Below, piece by piece: positions 41,051 to 47,429 of a stretch of DNA of 64,000 bases. Source of the DNA: Acidobacteriota bacterium. GTDB taxonomy: Bacteria > Acidobacteriota > Terriglobia > Bryobacterales > Bryobacteraceae. The notes beneath the pieces were generated by a model that worked only from the letters and a program-made list of their open reading frames with translations, did not search any database and was not told the DNA's origin. Numbering within the stretch: position 1 is the first letter of the stretch; each line of letters begins with the position of its first letter. The DNA is taken from assembly GCA_025350695.1 (NCBI GenBank), contig JANXXI010000324.1, positions 1 through 64,000 on the forward strand, in the 5' to 3' direction. The translations under genes and the position numbers were made by a program.

Positions 41051-42262
41051 TCAGGCTATAAATCTCTTGCGACCGAGTTCAATAGGGATGGCAGCCTTGG
41101 CCAGCACCGTAAATACAAACGCGCCGAGCGCCCAAATTCCCAGGCTGACTGTCAGCTCAATCCAGGTAGGCACATACTCATCAATGCGTCCCCAGGGTTC
41201 GGGAATGAAGCCGGGGATGATAGTGCCTAGCCCCTTTTCGAGCAAAATGCCGAGGAACAAAAGCACGCAGGCGGTATTGCGCCAACCCACGCGCTTCCGC
41301 AGCGGATGGAGGGTCAAGACCAGAGTTGCCATCAGTACCATGCCAACGGAAAGCCAAATGAATGGCTTCAAACTGGCTTTGCCATCCAAACCGAAATAGA
41401 GGTACTGGGCGCTCAAGGAATGATGCGTGGGAAAGTAGAACTCCTTAAACAATTCAGAGAGCAGCATGATAACGCTGATCTGCGCGGCGACGGTGACCAC
41501 TAGCGAAAGTTTGTGAATGGTGGCGTCGCCTACATCGAAATCAGTCTTGCGACGAATGACTTCAAGGATCAAGATCATCAACGCCGGTCCGGCGGCGAAA
41601 GCCGTGGCGAGGAAGCGAGGCCCCATCAGAGCATTGTTCCAATAGGGACGCGAGGCCAACCCGGCATATAGAAACGCTGTGACGAGGTGGAGCGATACGG
41701 CCCAGAAAATGGAGAGCATGACGAAGGGTACATAGCGGCGCTTATCGGGCTGCCGCCCTTGATAGTGGGCCAGCAAAATGTAGAGAGGAATGCAAAAGTT
41801 CATCACCAAATAACCGTTCAACACGATGATGTCCCAGGCCAGCATCGATTGAGGCCAGTTGAGCAGACCGATGCCAGGGATGGCATGCCACAATCGCGCC
41901 GGACCGCCAACATCCACCACCACAAAGCTGATCGCCATGATGACGGCGGACACCGCCACAGCTTCACCCATTAGGACGGCTCGTCCAAAATCGACGTCAT
42001 CCAAAACATATGCGGGCAGAACCAACACAACCGCCGCCGCGGCCACGCCCACCAGGAAGGTGAAGTTGGAAATGTACAGGCCCCAACTAACGTGATCGTG
42101 CATGCCGGTAACCGCGAGCCCTGCTCGCAGTTGAACGGAGTAACTATAGGCGCCGAGGCACATCAAAGCAGTCAGCACGCCCATCCAAATATGGTAGGAG
42201 CGGTTGCCGGTGGTGGTTTCCTCGAACGCGTCACGGATGAATTGCTTTAGAACAGTGGCCAT
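41051..42262 (-). CDS. nrfD: NrfD/PsrC-type membrane quinol subunit
   Basis: A 403-residue integral membrane protein with about ten helices, matching NrfD: SYHIWMGVLTALMCLGAYSY at the N-terminus, GLYISNFTFLVGVAAAAVV, a Gly/Pro-rich loop GGPARLWHAIPGIGLLNWPQSM, ALMGPRFLATAFAAGPAL and FEPEPWGR-like loop IPEPWGRIDEY. NrfD subunits take electrons from (or pass them to) quinol and dock to an NrfC-type Fe-S protein. ATG at 42262 chosen (TVLKQF). It is last in the nap-type operon, 5 nt after the Fe-S gene, implying that it feeds electrons toward the NapA-like enzyme. Confidence 0.88.
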   Translation of the reverse strand: MATVLKQFIRDAFEETTTGNRSYHIWMGVLTALMCLGAYSYSVQLRAGLAVTGMHDHVSWGLYISNFTFLVGVAAAAVVLVLPAYVLDDVDFGRAVLMGEAVAVSAVIMAISFVVVDVGGPARLWHAIPGIGLLNWPQSMLAWDIIVLNGYLVMNFCIPLYILLAHYQGRQPDKRRYVPFVMLSIFWAVSLHLVTAFLYAGLASRPYWNNALMGPRFLATAFAAGPALMILILEVIRRKTDFDVGDATIHKLSLVVTVAAQISVIMLLSELFKEFYFPTHHSLSAQYLYFGLDGKASLKPFIWLSVGMVLMATLVLTLHPLRKRVGWRNTACVLLFLGILLEKGLGTIIPGFIPEPWGRIDEYVPTWIELTVSLGIWALGAFVFTVLAKAAIPIELGRKRFIA

Positions 42263-42267
42263 TTTGC

Positions 42268-43272
42268 TCAGTCCATGTAGTACCAAAATTTCGGTTCGGT
42301 ACCCAAGTCCTCCTTCAGGCGGAATACTTTCTTATTGGCGAGAATCCATCGGATCTCGCTATCGGGGTCGAGCAAATTGCCGAACACCCGCGCGCCGGTT
42401 GGGCAAGCTTCCACGCACGCGGGATTTCGGCCATCGCGGGAACGTTGAATACAGAAGGTGCATTTTTCCACCACGCCTTTCTTGCGCGGACGGTTACCTA
42501 AGTAATGCTGATTGGGATTTACTTCCTGTTCCGGCACTTGAGGTTCGGCCCAATTGAAGCGGCGCGCATCGTACGGGCAGGCGGCCATGCAGTAGCGGCA
42601 TCCAATGCACCAATCGTAATCCACCACCACTATTCCATCGGGCTCCATCCAGGTGGCGCCTACCGGACAGACGGGTACGCATGGAGGATTTTGGCAGTGG
42701 AAGCATTGTGTCCCCATATAGAAATGACCAGCGGCTGGAACTTCGTGGAAGAAATCGTCTTGAGCGTGTTCGAAGTTCATCTCGCCTTTGGCGTGCTCGT
42801 GAATGCGAATGTACTTCATGTCGCTTGCCCGGTCCTGGTTGTTTTCCTTGGTACAGGCGCGGACGCAATCCATATAGCCACGGCACTTGGAGACATTGAA
42901 GGCGTAGCCGTAGAGCACCTTTTCCTTTGGCTCGGCGGCTGATACGCGAACGGTCTTACCGGTGTGCAATTCATGCGAGCGCTGCAGTCGCTCCACGGTG
43001 TTTTTCTTTTCATCCTCCGTCATCAGCCGGTAATTTCCCTGAAAAATGGCTTCCCAATCAAGATGGGCTTGTTCCTTTTCGCTGGCTGATGCGGTGATGG
43101 AACACGAGGTACTGAGCAATCCCATACCTGCTACCAATGCGCCAGCCATCACGCCCGCTGCCGTGCGCCTGTCCATCGGGCGGTCCAGTAATTGTTTGGC
43201 GCCAGATGGTTTCGAGCAACATTCCTGTGGCGGGGCGATATTGTTCAGGATCGGAAACAGGTCCGGCTTCAT
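42268..43272 (-). CDS. NrfC/DsrO-like periplasmic Fe-S electron-transfer protein
   Basis: A 334-residue protein with a twin-arginine-like region (DRRTAAGVMAGALVAGMGLL, residues 34-53), so probably exported folded. Cysteine groups: Cys130/136/140, Cys190/193/198/202, Cys222/225/229/232 and Cys271/274/286/290. The last three are full four-Cys sets for 4Fe-4S clusters; the first group shows CRGYMDC, spaced five not two and missing one Cys, so it may hold a 3Fe-4S or a differently ligated cluster. Role: link between NrfD and the multiheme proteins. ATGA overlap with the upstream tetraheme gene stop. Confidence 0.87.
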   Translation of the reverse strand: MKPDLFPILNNIAPPQECCSKPSGAKQLLDRPMDRRTAAGVMAGALVAGMGLLSTSCSITASASEKEQAHLDWEAIFQGNYRLMTEDEKKNTVERLQRSHELHTGKTVRVSAAEPKEKVLYGYAFNVSKCRGYMDCVRACTKENNQDRASDMKYIRIHEHAKGEMNFEHAQDDFFHEVPAAGHFYMGTQCFHCQNPPCVPVCPVGATWMEPDGIVVVDYDWCIGCRYCMAACPYDARRFNWAEPQVPEQEVNPNQHYLGNRPRKKGVVEKCTFCIQRSRDGRNPACVEACPTGARVFGNLLDPDSEIRWILANKKVFRLKEDLGTEPKFWYYMD

Positions 43273-43895
43273 CGAGTCACCTCATCCACGGTCGTATTTT
43301 CTTTTCTCGCGGGTAATCGGGATTCGACGGCCGGACGGTGCGGGTTGTGGCAGGCTGCGCAGTTGTTGACTACTCGCGGTGGAGCCCATCCGCCCAGGCG
43401 TTTTCCATGCGCTCCACCGGCCCAATCTTTTATCTGCTTACTGTGACATTGGCCACATACTTGGTAGCTATGATTCATGTTGACAGTGGCTCCGTTCAAG
43501 GTCACAAGTTCGTCCATTTTGTCTTCTCCGTGGCAGGTTTTGCATGCCATGGTATTGGCTGGAGCATGTTGTAAAGTGAGGCTCCAGTGGGCCTTTTTTC
43601 CTTCGTCCGCGCTGCGCTGGACCAGTTTGGACAAAGGTTGATCGTGGCAGCGGCCACAAGGAAATCGCTCGATCTTGGGAGTTCGCGAGGCGACGAAGAA
43701 TTCGGGCATTTGAGGAAACCCTTTCGCCTTCACTCGCTCTACCCCGTCTAAGAATTGTTCGCCGGTCACTCCGGCATTGGAGTTCGGTTCAGTTGCTTCC
43801 TTGATTAACTCCAACAAGTGTTGGCCGTGACCTGGTACTTCTTTGCGTGAACAGGAGCCCAGGCAGATCAGAAGCAAAAGAAACAGCCGGTTCAT
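43269..43895 (-). CDS. Tetraheme c-type cytochrome lipoprotein
   Basis: A 208-residue protein with lipobox LGSC (Cys15) and four CXXCH motifs at 80-84 (CGRCH), 118-122 (CKTCH), 147-151 (CGQCH) and 179-183 (CAACH). Between them are distal His residues (HWSLTLQH, NHSYQ, GAHGKR) that could be second axial ligands. It should be tethered to a membrane in the periplasm. In the operon it lies between the NapB-like tetraheme gene (4-nt overlap, ATGA) and the Fe-S gene (4-nt overlap). Inference: a relay replacing NapC. The ATG at 43895 is fixed by the overlap; the longer frame to 43970 is rejected. Confidence 0.87.
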   Translation of the reverse strand: MNRLFLLLLICLGSCSRKEVPGHGQHLLELIKEATEPNSNAGVTGEQFLDGVERVKAKGFPQMPEFFVASRTPKIERFPCGRCHDQPLSKLVQRSADEGKKAHWSLTLQHAPANTMACKTCHGEDKMDELVTLNGATVNMNHSYQVCGQCHSKQIKDWAGGAHGKRLGGWAPPRVVNNCAACHNPHRPAVESRLPARKENTTVDEVTR

Positions 43896-44578
43896 TGGGT
43901 TAATCTCCAATCGTCTACAAATCCTGGCTGCTGTTTTCCTTCTTCTGTGGCAGCATGACACTGGCGGCAATTCACTCGACTGGGATGAGTGGTGCGAATT
44001 TCTTTAGGCGCCGAGGGTCCCGCGTGGCATGCCAGGCAGTTATTGCGCATCGCCAGCGTGTGAGGAATCGGCGGGGGACTTCCGGGCAACGCGGCGCCGC
44101 CAATGGCAGGGGCTTTTTCAGCAATGAAGGACGTTGGGCGGAACGGCGCAACAATTTCTTTCGCCACGTGACACTGTTTGCAATTGGTCCACTCCGGATG
44201 CGGCGTGACGGGTGCGTAAGCCTTAAGCTTCGGCACGAACTCGCCTTCGGCATGACAAGCCAAGCAGCCTTTGCCGCCAAATCCCTTTTCATCGAAGATC
44301 TCGTGCGGGATCACCGGCGGGGCCCCAGTATAAGCGCGCCGACTGTAATACTGTTTTAGAGTCCTATTCCCTTGGTTTTTCTCGGATTGCACATAGGCCA
44401 ACGCCCGCGGCGCTCGGCTGAAGACCCCGCTTTCAATCGGCGTGGAAAATGCCTGAACTGATTTAGATTCGACGGGCAACGGGTGTTGCCATTCGGCGCG
44501 CATGCTTTCGCCAACCACAGCCACTGCCGCGAGAAACAAGACTGAGACGAGTGCGATAATCCCAACGCGCGTCTTCAT
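43892..44578 (-). CDS. napB: NapB-like tetraheme cytochrome (duplicated diheme module)
   Basis: A 228-residue protein with an N-terminal anchor/signal (TRVGIIALVSVLFLAAVAVVG). Hemes: CLACH 105-109, CKQCH 133-137, CLACH 181-185, CRQCH 204-208. The first pair sits in a classical NapB setting (YTGAPPVIPHEIF ... HPEWTNCKQCH); the second repeats it (PPPIPHTLAMRNNCLACH ... HPSRVNCRQCH). Ordinary NapB is a ~150-residue diheme protein, so this looks like an internal duplication. Family role: hands electrons to NapA in the periplasm. Located 3 nt after the NapA-like gene. Confidence 0.85.
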   Translation of the reverse strand: MKTRVGIIALVSVLFLAAVAVVGESMRAEWQHPLPVESKSVQAFSTPIESGVFSRAPRALAYVQSEKNQGNRTLKQYYSRRAYTGAPPVIPHEIFDEKGFGGKGCLACHAEGEFVPKLKAYAPVTPHPEWTNCKQCHVAKEIVAPFRPTSFIAEKAPAIGGAALPGSPPPIPHTLAMRNNCLACHAGPSAPKEIRTTHPSRVNCRQCHAATEEGKQQPGFVDDWRLTQ

Positions 44579-44581
44579 GGT

Positions 44582-46915
44582 CTATGCGAGTTCCACTCGT
44601 ACGGCGCACTTCTTGTAATCAGGCTGCTTGGATATTGGACAGAACGCGTCAAGCGTCAGTTCGTTGATTAGCAGGTTTTCGTCGAAGAACGGTACGAAAA
44701 CCATACCTCTGGGCGGACGGCCGCGCTTGTCTATTGCGACGGGAAGCACGAGCGATCCCCGACGTGAAGTCAACTTTACCTTGCCGCCGTTCTTCACGCC
44801 GAGCGTTTTGGCATCGTCTGGATGCAGTTCGGCGTAAGCGTTCGGCATGGCTTGGTGCAATACACTGATGCGACGGGTCATCGAGCCGGTGTGCCAATGC
44901 TCCACCACGCGCCCAGTGTTCAGCCAAAACGGATACTCTTTATCTGGCGATTCAGCAGGTGGCTCATAGGGACGGAACCAGATCCAGGCTCGCTTATCGG
45001 GCTTACCGTAGAAGTTCCAATCGTCGCGGCCTTTAGGGTTATAACCCGCCGTTGCCGGATCGTACTTCTTGTTAAAGCGCCACTTAGTTTCCTTGCCGTT
45101 GACATAAGGCCACATGACGCCGGGGTTCCTCTTCAGTTCCTCATAGGTGGCCATGTTGTGCCGCGGACCGGCTTGAAACTTCCCGTACTCTCTCCATATT
45201 TCCTGAATGTGATTTTCATACTTCCAAGGGAATTGTTTTTCGTATCCCAAACGCCGGGCTACTTCGATCAGCTGCCAAGTGTCACTCATGGCCTCGCCCG
45301 GCGGCTGCAACATCTGTTCGAAGTGTTGAGTACGCCGCTCGCTGTTGCCGAACATTCCTTCGCGTTCAATCCACATGGCCGAGGGCAGAACCACATCAGC
45401 CACTTCAGTTGTGGGCGTGGGATAGACGTCACTAACCACGATGAAGCTGGATTCTTTCTTCGCCGCATCGCGATAGCGTTTCAGTTTTGGCATGGTTACC
45501 ATGGGGTTGGTCACCTGAATCCACATGAACTTGATCTGTCCGCGATCCATGGCGCGGAACATTTCCACGGTGTGGAAGGTGGGCTTGGCTGAAATGTTTT
45601 CAACCGGAACACCCCAAATCTCCGCCGCCATTTCCCGGTCGTGTTCGTTGGTCACTTCGCCATGTGGCAGGCGGTTGGTAAGCGTTCCAACTTCGCGAAC
45701 AGTGCCGCAAGCGCTTGGCTGCCCGGTTAGCGAGAAGGGCGAATTTCCCGGAGTCGAGATCTTACCCAGCAGTAAGTGGATGTTATACACCAGATTGTTA
45801 ATCCAAGTGCCACGGACGTGCTGGTTGAAACCCATGCACCAGTAACTGACTACCTTGCGGCGCGGGTCCCCATAAAGGGAAGCAAGGTAGCGGATGTCGT
45901 TGGCGGAGACGCCGGAAATCAGTTCGGCTTTCTCGGGCGTGTAGTCAGCCAGCATTGCCTTGTACTTGGCAAGGTCGATGGTTTCGGCTTTTTCTTCAAA
46001 CTTAAAGTTATCTTCCGTGCCGTATCCAATGTTGGTTTTACCGGTATGGAAGCTGACGTTCTTCTCAAGGAAATCGCGATTTTCCCAGCCATTGCGTAGG
46101 ATTTCGTGGCAAATCGCGTTGGCAATCGCCAGATCGGCGCCGGGTTTGAATAGAATGGACCGGTCAGAGGCGATGCTGGTGCGCGTTGAGCGTGTGGCAA
46201 GGTCGATAATCTTGATGTCAGAATTTTTCAAACGGCGATCGAGCATACGGGAGAACAAGACCGGATGCATTTCCGCCATGTTGTTGCCCCAGAGGATGAA
46301 GGTGTTGGCGTGATCTATGTCGTCGTAACAACCCATGGGTTCATCGAGGCCAAAGCTGGTCATGAATCCAGTTACAGCGCTGGACATGCACAGCCGCGCG
46401 TTTCCTTCCACGTTGTTAGTGCCGATGCAACCTTTGAACAACTTACTGGCGACATACCCATCGGGAATGGTCCATTGGCCGGAGCCATAAATGGAGACCG
46501 CGTCCTTGCCATGGTCCTTGATGGTTTGCTTCATCTTCGCGGCCACAAGATCGAGGGCCTCTTTCATGGGAACGGGCGTCAACCTGCCGTTCTTCCGGAC
46601 GAGGGCAGTTTTTAGGCGATCAGAGCCGTAGAGCGCCATGATGGAGTGATACCCTTTCACGCAGGCCAAGCCCTGATTCACGGGACTGGCTGGGTCACCC
46701 TTCACGGCCACGGCGCGGTTTTCCTTGATCCCGACCAATAAGCCGCAACCCGTACCGCAGAAGCGGCAGGGCGTCTTTTTCCAGTCAACGCCGGGCAGGT
46801 TGGCTTCCACCTTCGACGCCGCGCCAAATGAAATTCCTGGAAACATGGCTTCCGCCGCGGTAATGGCAGCGCCTGTGATCAATTGTTTGATGGCGTCTCT
46901 TCTATGCGTGGGCAT
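44582..46915 (-). CDS. napA: NapA-type periplasmic molybdoenzyme (nitrate reductase catalytic subunit)
   Basis: A 777-residue exported Mo-bisMGD protein. N-terminal twin Arg in THRRDAIKQLITGAA (Tat signal). The 4Fe-4S ligands are Cys50, Cys53, Cys57 and Cys85 (CRFCGTGC ... LACVKG). The Mo ligand is Cys176 in GNARLCMSSAVTGF, and the text around it (GLDEPMGCYDDI, NNMAEMHPVLFSRM) is very close to well-studied NapA. So nitrate reduction is the likely reaction; a related oxyanion cannot be excluded. The ATG at 46915 overlaps the end of napD by 14 nt. The operon has no napC, napF, napG or napH. Confidence 0.92.
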   Translation of the reverse strand: MPTHRRDAIKQLITGAAITAAEAMFPGISFGAASKVEANLPGVDWKKTPCRFCGTGCGLLVGIKENRAVAVKGDPASPVNQGLACVKGYHSIMALYGSDRLKTALVRKNGRLTPVPMKEALDLVAAKMKQTIKDHGKDAVSIYGSGQWTIPDGYVASKLFKGCIGTNNVEGNARLCMSSAVTGFMTSFGLDEPMGCYDDIDHANTFILWGNNMAEMHPVLFSRMLDRRLKNSDIKIIDLATRSTRTSIASDRSILFKPGADLAIANAICHEILRNGWENRDFLEKNVSFHTGKTNIGYGTEDNFKFEEKAETIDLAKYKAMLADYTPEKAELISGVSANDIRYLASLYGDPRRKVVSYWCMGFNQHVRGTWINNLVYNIHLLLGKISTPGNSPFSLTGQPSACGTVREVGTLTNRLPHGEVTNEHDREMAAEIWGVPVENISAKPTFHTVEMFRAMDRGQIKFMWIQVTNPMVTMPKLKRYRDAAKKESSFIVVSDVYPTPTTEVADVVLPSAMWIEREGMFGNSERRTQHFEQMLQPPGEAMSDTWQLIEVARRLGYEKQFPWKYENHIQEIWREYGKFQAGPRHNMATYEELKRNPGVMWPYVNGKETKWRFNKKYDPATAGYNPKGRDDWNFYGKPDKRAWIWFRPYEPPAESPDKEYPFWLNTGRVVEHWHTGSMTRRISVLHQAMPNAYAELHPDDAKTLGVKNGGKVKLTSRRGSLVLPVAIDKRGRPPRGMVFVPFFDENLLINELTLDAFCPISKQPDYKKCAVRVELA

Positions 46916-47159
46916 GAGCTTCCTCCGACATTTCCCCGCAATAACCGGAGACAAGAGACATATTCCCGAACCCGCTCAGCGAAGCGATTGCTTGTTCGAG
47001 TTGTTCGTCTTCTTCGAGTGAGGATGTGGAGGTAATCAGGATGAACGCGTCGCGATTGTCCGCCGGAATGATCTCGCACTGAGGCATCAGGCTAAGGACG
47101 TGAAGTAATTCATCGCGCCAACCGGGACGCGGGGATACAATGTAACTCTTCAGCAGCAT
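46902..47159 (-). CDS. napD: NapD-like Tat-signal chaperone
   Basis: An 85-residue protein: MLLKSYIVSPRPGWRDELLHVL, then a beta strand CEIIPADNRDAFILITST and acidic helix LEEDEQLEQAIASLSG, the ferredoxin-like shape of NapD, which binds the NapA twin-arginine signal before export. Size and position (first gene, directly before napA with overlap) support this. Sequence similarity is modest, as is usual for NapD. Confidence 0.8.
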   Translation of the reverse strand: MLLKSYIVSPRPGWRDELLHVLSLMPQCEIIPADNRDAFILITSTSSLEEDEQLEQAIASLSGFGNMSLVSGYCGEMSEEAHAHA

Positions 47160-47176
47160 GGCTGCTAATGTTGGGG

Positions 47177-47194
47177 CAAGTGGGTCTCCACTTG
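47177..47194. promoter_or_regulatory. Perfect palindrome upstream of napD
   Basis: CAAGTGG-GTCT-CCACTTG, two 7-bp arms around 4 nt, 17 nt upstream of the napD ATG. It could be an operator half-site pair or a leader hairpin that hides the ribosome site. It does not match the FNR/NNR consensus. The rest of 47195-47429 has G/C-rich inverted fragments but no gene. Confidence 0.4.
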
Positions 47195-47429
47195 AAACGT
47201 TGCAAACAAGCCGGCCAGAGGTTTGGCAGTGGGTGAAAACTCACAGAGGTGGGGGATTTGACTCAGCGTTTAGTCTCCGAACGGAGCGTTGCGGGATCTC
47301 CGATTTCGAGGCCTTTTCCGTTACCCGAGCAGTCGGGCCAGGGGGCCCTCCGCAGACCAGGGGGTCCGCCCCACTGCACACCGGAGCTTTCCAAAGTTCG
47401 GAAGAGTTTTCTTGAAGGTTCCCTTGGGG

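Follow-up and report, generated by a model that had tools for sequence, protein, structure and literature searches.

We analysed a stretch of 64,000 nucleotides (hereafter the window; positions 1 to 64,000 of contig JANXXI010000324.1, assembly GCA_025350695.1) from an Acidobacteriota bacterium of the Bryobacteraceae, in which six genes on the minus strand between positions 41051 and 47159 make up a periplasmic nitrate reductase (Nap) operon of unusual composition. With coordinates taken from ATG starts, the operon opens with a gene for a NapD-like chaperone (46902..47159; 85 amino acids), which is followed by napA for the catalytic subunit of periplasmic nitrate reductase (44582..46915; 777 amino acids from the ATG, with an RR near the start) and by the gene for a doubled NapB with four hemes and a possible uncleaved N-terminal anchor (43892..44578). 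Three further genes, called the trio below, encode a tetraheme c-type cytochrome with a lipoprotein-like signal in the window copy (43269..43895), a DsrO-like periplasmic iron-sulphur (Fe-S) protein with four cluster sites and an RR signal (42268..43272), and a DsrP-like membrane subunit of the NrfD family with 10 hydrophobic segments, which is likely to oxidise quinol (41051..42262). None of the six is a NapC or NapGH gene. Overlaps or short gaps join the genes throughout, as an earlier note on this DNA had described: napD and napA overlap by 14 nucleotides, 3 nucleotides separate napA from the doubled NapB gene, the tetraheme gene overlaps its neighbour on either side by 4 nucleotides, and a 5-nucleotide gap lies between the Fe-S and NrfD-family genes.

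The NapA protein exceeds the cut-offs of both NCBIfam equivalog models (964.8 bits against 904, and 935.9 against 930.55), although the TIGR01706 cut-off is cleared by only ~5 bits. The model of the assimilatory enzyme NasC gives it 355 bits, versus 936–965 with the Nap models, and its top PDB matches are periplasmic nitrate reductases. Cys50, Cys53, Cys57 and Cys85, which we take to be the 4Fe-4S site, are kept in 98% of 44 aligned sequences, and Cys176, presumably the Mo ligand, in 100%. For the window NapD, the PF03927 score of 22 bits lies under the cut-off of 28 and NCBIfam gives no match; the NapD frame of Tenacibaculum caenipelagi, searched singly, has no Pfam match at 0.001. When the window protein is aligned with 19 proteins from the same place elsewhere, 18 of the 20 sequences match Pfam NapD at E ≤ 0.01, and a profile of these sequences finds NapD chains alone in the PDB.

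The doubled NapB matches PF03892 at 34.3 bits (cut-off 25.1) over its first half only and consists of two NapB units, each of the form IPH-CXXCH-HP-CXXCH. Its halves align with a score of 105, against a mean of 24.6 (standard deviation 4.8, maximum 50) for 500 shuffles, and the doubling is real. All four CXXCH motifs, together with four additional histidines, are invariant in 27 sequences (the window's and 26 relatives), which fits four bis-His hemes; across 44 sequences the CXXCH count is four in 42 and five in 2. A search of the PDB with the family profile found NapB alone, in three entries. Residues 2–31 form one helix in the predicted model, with a block mean pLDDT (predicted local distance difference test) of 90–98 over residues 1–30, so that the protein may be anchored in the membrane by an uncleaved N-terminal helix. 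The tetraheme protein falls into no clear Pfam or NCBIfam family. It has four CXXCH motifs, with four further histidines invariant in 26 sequences, and the motif count among 44 sequences is four in 41, six in two and three in one. A lipobox-like motif is present in 29 of the 44 and, judged by eye, is missing from the Desulfobacterota sequences, so the term lipoprotein does not apply to this protein generally. With four CXXCH motifs in each of the two cytochromes, eight hemes are predicted outside NapA, the number that the earlier note had given.

The Fe-S subunit barely exceeds the cut-off of the DsrO model (200.7 against 200) and fails the NrfC model (129.5 against 377.6). The membrane subunit passes the DsrP model (398.3 against 350), fails the NrfD equivalog (17.2 against 347.6) and matches the NrfD Pfam family at 123.8 (cut-off 25.8). 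Since both NrfC and NrfD equivalog models failed, we ruled out a module of NrfCD proper, leaving kinship at the level of the superfamily only; a search of the window's genome for NrfA found no match. The proposal in the earlier note, that an NrfC/NrfD pair and a heme lipoprotein replace NapC or NapGH, therefore holds in part: the role is seemingly taken by a module of cytochrome, Fe-S protein and NrfD-family protein, but the nearest characterised relatives are DsrO and DsrP, not NrfC and NrfD. The Fe-S subunit has 15 conserved cysteines, rather than the 16 counted previously; an RR motif is present in every one of 44 sequences. The second cysteine of the first cluster motif is replaced in all 44 (Tyr in 42, Phe in 2), so that one of the four sites is probably a 3Fe-4S cluster.

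For comparison we used two Desulfobacterota loci (L218 and L219), read by eye as dsrMKJOP, in which the J-O-P gene order is that of the trio and DsrJ has three hemes. The window membrane subunit is 41–43% identical to their DsrP proteins. Across 39 nap-linked sequences, 34 polar positions reach at least 95% conservation, and 24 of them are common to both DsrP proteins. Y63, D117, S139 and D144 are kept at this level and also occur in the two DsrP proteins. They correspond to Tyr52, Asp106, Ser124 and Asp129, given as the quinone-binding site of DsrP in Table 2 of PMC8076601, the correspondence being made through the DsrP sequences of L218 and L219 and not through the Desulfovibrio protein itself. 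Among the 16 half-channel residues in the same table, 9 have a counterpart kept in at least 95% of the nap-linked sequences, namely Y74, E89, Y136, H176 and T179 on the N side and R200, E254, H266 and a Lys taken as 329 on the P side. The window's genome holds three DsrP-model matches, and the operon copy alone is over the cut-off.

To place the operon among its relatives, 84,980 species, each represented by one genome, were scanned for NapA with a two-row alignment. The scan confirmed 588 stretches, of which the best 80, those most like the window NapA, were taken as a sample of relatives. Loci with tetraheme and Fe-S matches beside napA were labelled type A before any trees were made; there are 43, comprising 42 of the best 80 and the locus of one Acidobacteriota genome (G015, L024). 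A further locus (L042) also has these matches and was set apart because its gene order differs and an octaheme gene is present, and L156, which ends inside NapA, is not among the 43. The genes for NapA, four-heme NapB, tetraheme cytochrome, Fe-S protein and NrfD-family protein follow one another in the same order on one strand in 42 of the 43 loci, the contig of L129 ending in NrfD, and all six genes including NapD are in order in 34 at the BLAST cut-off used. Co-occurrence of the six families in this order had been proposed as a check in the earlier note; recurrence of the core in 42 of 43 homologous loci of several phyla is more than chance. By label, 25 loci are from Bacteroidota (21 of them Flavobacteriaceae), five from Thermodesulfobacteriota (including one Dadabacteria metagenome-assembled genome, MAG), three from Gemmatimonadota, two from MAGs labelled Pseudomonadota, which fall with Desulfobulbaceae in the quick NapA tree, two from Acidobacteriota in addition to G015, and one from Chloroflexota; four are unlabelled. 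This distribution, with 25 of 43 loci in Bacteroidota, rules out a complex distinctive of Acidobacteriota, as had been suggested. Within that phylum type A is rare: the search for four-heme NapB matched 21 of 396 genomes, and among the regions fetched only the window and G015 are of type A, the contigs of L025, L027 and L032 being too short to show the module. The type-A loci contain no octaheme match over 150 bits, and for this reason an octaheme-fed Nap was dropped as an explanation of the window operon.

Type-A NapA sequences form one clade in a quick tree of 99 sequences (45 sequences including the truncated L156; Shimodaira–Hasegawa-like approximate likelihood ratio test 100) and again in a careful tree of 46 chosen from the 99 (16 of 16 sequences, support 100/100, all 200 bootstrap trees). 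These trees are rooted at the midpoint, hold neither an assimilatory outgroup nor a characterised NapA by name, and place the type-A sequences next to proteobacterial and Geobacteraceae NapA. The NrfD-family proteins of type-A loci likewise form a clade of 39 sequences (support 98) in a quick tree rooted on ActC, from which 5 of 44 type-A sequences, short or truncated, had been dropped. The quick trees flag long branches at L042, L037 and L029 for NapA and at L222 and ActC for NrfD. Distance matrices of NapA and four partners are correlated at r = 0.76–0.80, with 0 of 999 permutations as high, and at r = 0.63–0.84 when Bacteroidota are left out. The clades and correlated distances indicate that the operon moved and diverged largely as a unit, being inherited in this way across several phyla, with marine Flavobacteriaceae among the carriers.

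Genome-wide absence tests were run on chosen genomes: 21 for the NapC family and for NrfA, 22 for NapH, 15 for NarG and 9 for the molybdopterin family. PF03264, the NapC/NirT family, has no match in 9 of the 21 type-A genomes. Nine of the 12 with a match have one that adjoins NrfA, the position expected of NrfH, and in G411 a NapC-family match below the cut-off (22.7 bits) is the operon's own tetraheme gene. NapH over the cut-off occurs in none of the 22 genomes; sub-threshold matches occur in all 22, and likewise in 12 of 14 control genomes. NarG was found at E ≤ 1e-30 in one of 15 genomes, a Caldilineaceae MAG. In Arenibacter certesii, as in Tenacibaculum caenipelagi, the NapC family and NarG both gave no match. 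A separate, conserved napC or napGH operon accompanying these napA genes is thus not seen as a pattern, the exceptions being a Desulfocapsa genome (G414) and L119.

One carrier species offers a link to phenotype. Tenacibaculum caenipelagi (L118/G396) has three molybdopterin-family matches, namely the operon NapA (944.7 against 930.55), a protein of FdhF/YdeP type (856.1 against 582.15) and a third read by eye as ActB, and its genome has no NapC-family match, no NapH over the cut-off and no NarG. Among these three, the operon NapA would be the sole plausible nitrate reductase. CECT 8283 is, we presume, the type strain of this species. Table A2 of PMC7763822 scores the type strain '+' for nitrate reduction. 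The same source lists T. soleae isolates as nitrate-positive and gives 'NA' for the type strain of that species and for the sequenced UCD-KL19, and in PMC5561996 the nitrate reduction of T. maritimum is ascribed to NapAB. The carriers G398 and G399 each hold a further molybdoenzyme, and the one of G399 scores midway between Fdh and NasC without passing either cut-off, so nitrate reduction in the two is not assignable to Nap alone.

The gene content, the identity of NapA, inheritance as one unit, the absence of a known donor in several carriers and the nitrate-reducing carrier species together support the reading that the operon encodes a membrane-bound quinol:nitrate oxidoreductase with the trio in the role of NapC or NapGH, which we judge probable on this genomic evidence. 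It is plausible that the gene products form one respiratory complex. We infer the order of the carriers, their physical association, the type of quinone and the coupling to energy as follows. The DsrP-like subunit would oxidise (mena)quinol at the periplasmic face, and electrons would run by way of the four DsrO-like clusters to the tetraheme protein and on to the four hemes of the doubled NapB. In NapA they would pass the 4Fe-4S cluster and reach the Mo site, where nitrate would be reduced to nitrite; NapD would serve to mature NapA. The trio would supply NapA in the way that NapC or NapGH supplies it elsewhere in known Nap systems, in parallel with NrfBCD, which stands in for NrfH with nitrite reductase (PMC12285233). 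A bolder and rather doubtful extension is that the DsrP-like subunit translocates protons as it oxidises quinol, so that nitrate reduction in these phyla builds a proton-motive force, giving an energy-conserving Nap unlike NapC-fed Nap; this suggestion draws on the conservation of the quinone-site residues and of about half of the half-channel residues. NrfD-family proteins have been proposed as ion translocators (PMC8076601), and the operon makes energy conservation at the quinol step of Nap respiration testable. Nap surveys that seek NapC or NapGH would score these organisms as incomplete, and a distinct line of Nap that has a quinol module to itself, represented by 21 Flavobacteriaceae loci and in several other phyla, would alter the annotation of nitrate respiration.

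Several observations weigh against a quinol:nitrate oxidoreductase fed by the trio. Neither cytochrome's AlphaFold model matches a PDB entry at E ≤ 0.001; the mean pLDDT is 73 for one and 78 for the other. Flavobacteriaceae contain two NapA lineages (L118, L145 and others), about 69–71% and 62–65% identical to the window protein, and the NrfD tree groups their loci differently, a conflict which suggests that napA was probably swapped inside the operon and replaced in place. In the Desulfocapsa genome, a NapH-like gene (103.6 bits, cut-off 213.05) and a NapC-like gene lie ~4 kb apart on another contig than the operon, and at L119 a NapH-like gene, the sole neighbour of a type-A locus to score over 100 bits, lies ~3 kb away on the opposite strand. 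The window's genome itself encodes, on another contig, a pentaheme frame with a NapC/NirT domain (25.9 bits against 24.1) that could feed NapA, and it holds a further molybdoenzyme that lies between the Fdh and NasC models and over neither cut-off. Some carriers are incomplete MAGs, which makes the absences soft. Finally, the trio is not tied to nap. Among 396 Acidobacteriota genomes, 53, one of them the window's own, have a match to its tetraheme protein at E below 1e-13, and in 36 regions fetched from this phylum (L074–L109) all three genes are present in 35 and NapA in none, so that the trio may serve other acceptors.

This last pattern, and the NapC/NirT-domain protein of the window's genome, would also suit a trio that is a co-transcribed general quinol:cytochrome c module, with a NapC/CymA-like protein or a common pool of cytochromes as the main periplasmic source of electrons for NapA. 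We consider that arrangement unlikely, given that the nap-linked NrfD proteins form a separate clade whose distances track those of NapA across phyla, and that 9 of 21 carriers lack a NapC-family match. A sulphur-linked function, in which the DsrJOP-like module would supply NapA and/or the quinone pool with electrons from a reduced sulphur compound or a periplasmic cytochrome, instead of supplying NapA from quinol, is suggested by the cytochrome-DsrO-DsrP order, which is that of DsrJOP in the two dsrMKJOP loci, and by subunits scoring over the DsrO and DsrP cut-offs. The operon cytochrome, however, has four hemes as opposed to the three of the two DsrJ proteins, DsrM and DsrK are missing from the operon, just the operon copy among the three DsrP-model matches of the window's genome is over the cut-off, and 25 of 43 carriers belong to Bacteroidota, a phylum that to our knowledge is not known for Dsr metabolism; we regard such a function as very improbable. 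Least probable of these alternatives, in our estimate, is a NapA-like enzyme with another main substrate, such as selenate or another oxyanion. Substrate is not readable from sequence, and the slim margin over TIGR01706 leaves some room for this idea, but both equivalog models and the nearest PDB entries point to Nap, and T. caenipelagi, listed as nitrate-reducing, offers no better candidate enzyme. A quinol:nitrate oxidoreductase therefore remains our preferred reading.

Comparison with known systems brings out what is particular to the operon. With Nap as generally described (NapA, NapB and NapD with NapC or NapGH) it shares NapA, a NapD-like gene, a NapB-type cytochrome and presumably quinol-fed periplasmic nitrate reduction; it differs in that its NapB is doubled, with four hemes, and in the trio of tetraheme and DsrO/DsrP-like proteins found instead of NapC or NapGH. 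It resembles the DsrJOP part of DsrMKJOP in the order of cytochrome, Fe-S and membrane protein, in passing the DsrO and DsrP cut-offs and in keeping the DsrP quinone-site residues, but its cytochrome is tetraheme and not triheme, DsrM and DsrK are missing, a Tyr or Phe occupies Fe-S cluster 1 and the partner is NapA. In NrfABCD of the E. coli type, too, a multiheme cytochrome, an Fe-S protein and an NrfD-family protein replace a donor of NrfH/NapC type (PMC12285233), whereas the operon subunits fail the NrfC and NrfD models and the enzyme is NapA, not NrfA. Cbc4 (CbcSTU) of Geobacter is likewise encoded by a single operon, its parts being a membrane quinone subunit, an Fe-S protein and a c-type cytochrome (PMC11434368). 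The best NrfD relative in three Geobacteraceae genomes, where the presence of cbcSTU is assumed, scores 62 bits; close kinship with Cbc4 was dropped for want of a strong match in these three genomes, and the likeness is one of analogy only. Alternative complex III (ACIII), an apparent copy of which lies on contig C364 of the window's genome, has an actABCDEF set that differs from the operon's six genes.

Two published clusters come nearest in gene neighbourhood. In the Oslofjord MAGs OFTM8 and OFTM33, an NrfD cluster that is ACIII-like and includes actD lies downstream of genes for Nap and Nxr (PMC10732223), and PMC5276818 reports an NrfD cluster (TDIS_0606–0609) with an HaoA-like multiheme protein beside napMADGH in Thermosulfurimonas dismutans. 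Both are like the operon in bringing NrfD, Fe-S and cytochrome genes close to nap, and unlike it in that neither is described as a six-gene operon in the available parts of the two papers. No word starting with 'Nap' occurs in the main text of PMC8076601, which catalogues complexes that contain NrfD. A description of the six-gene operon was not found in full-text searches of an open-licence library, and subscription reviews of nap operons may mention it.

The nearest flanks of the operon look unrelated to it, with a PQQ-type propeller upstream and an AlgH-like protein downstream, and a scan of positions 47160–47429 for an FNR box with at most 2 mismatches found no site. Near some type-A loci, genes for Mo-cofactor synthesis or a Crp/FNR-type regulator were read by eye, each family at 5 to 8 of the 43. 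The pentaheme frame of the window's genome lies in a cluster (L114, contig C218, 1454–7993) of frames with 10, 10, 5 and 1 CXXCH motifs, the two with 10 overlapping, beside a 626-amino-acid neighbour that resembles an outer-membrane barrel, an arrangement that brings extracellular electron transfer to mind.

In Acidobacteriota, Planctomycetota and Myxococcota another unusual form of Nap was seen, in which genes for a Rieske protein, an octaheme cytochrome, NapA and the same four-heme NapB lie close together. Octaheme and Rieske matches are both present in 18 of the 28 loci outside type A that hold NapA and four-heme NapB (L026, L028–L031, L033–L035, L038, L039, L158, L161, L164, L166–L169 and L173). 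Pfam confirms the octaheme protein (PF13447) and cytochrome b in L038, and cytochrome b and the Rieske protein in L167, and a quinol module of bc type may feed NapA in these loci. The locus set apart from type A (L042, genome G319) is mixed: after tetraheme, Fe-S, NrfD and octaheme genes come napA and genes for a four-heme cytochrome and a NapH-like Fer4_5 protein, and neither its NapA nor its NrfD belongs to a type-A clade. L222, in genome G419 of the Desulfobulbaceae, has a row of tetraheme, Fe-S, NrfD-family and octaheme genes that resembles the four-gene locus reported for Thermosulfurimonas dismutans, and its NrfD is only distantly related to the NrfD-family subunit of the operon.

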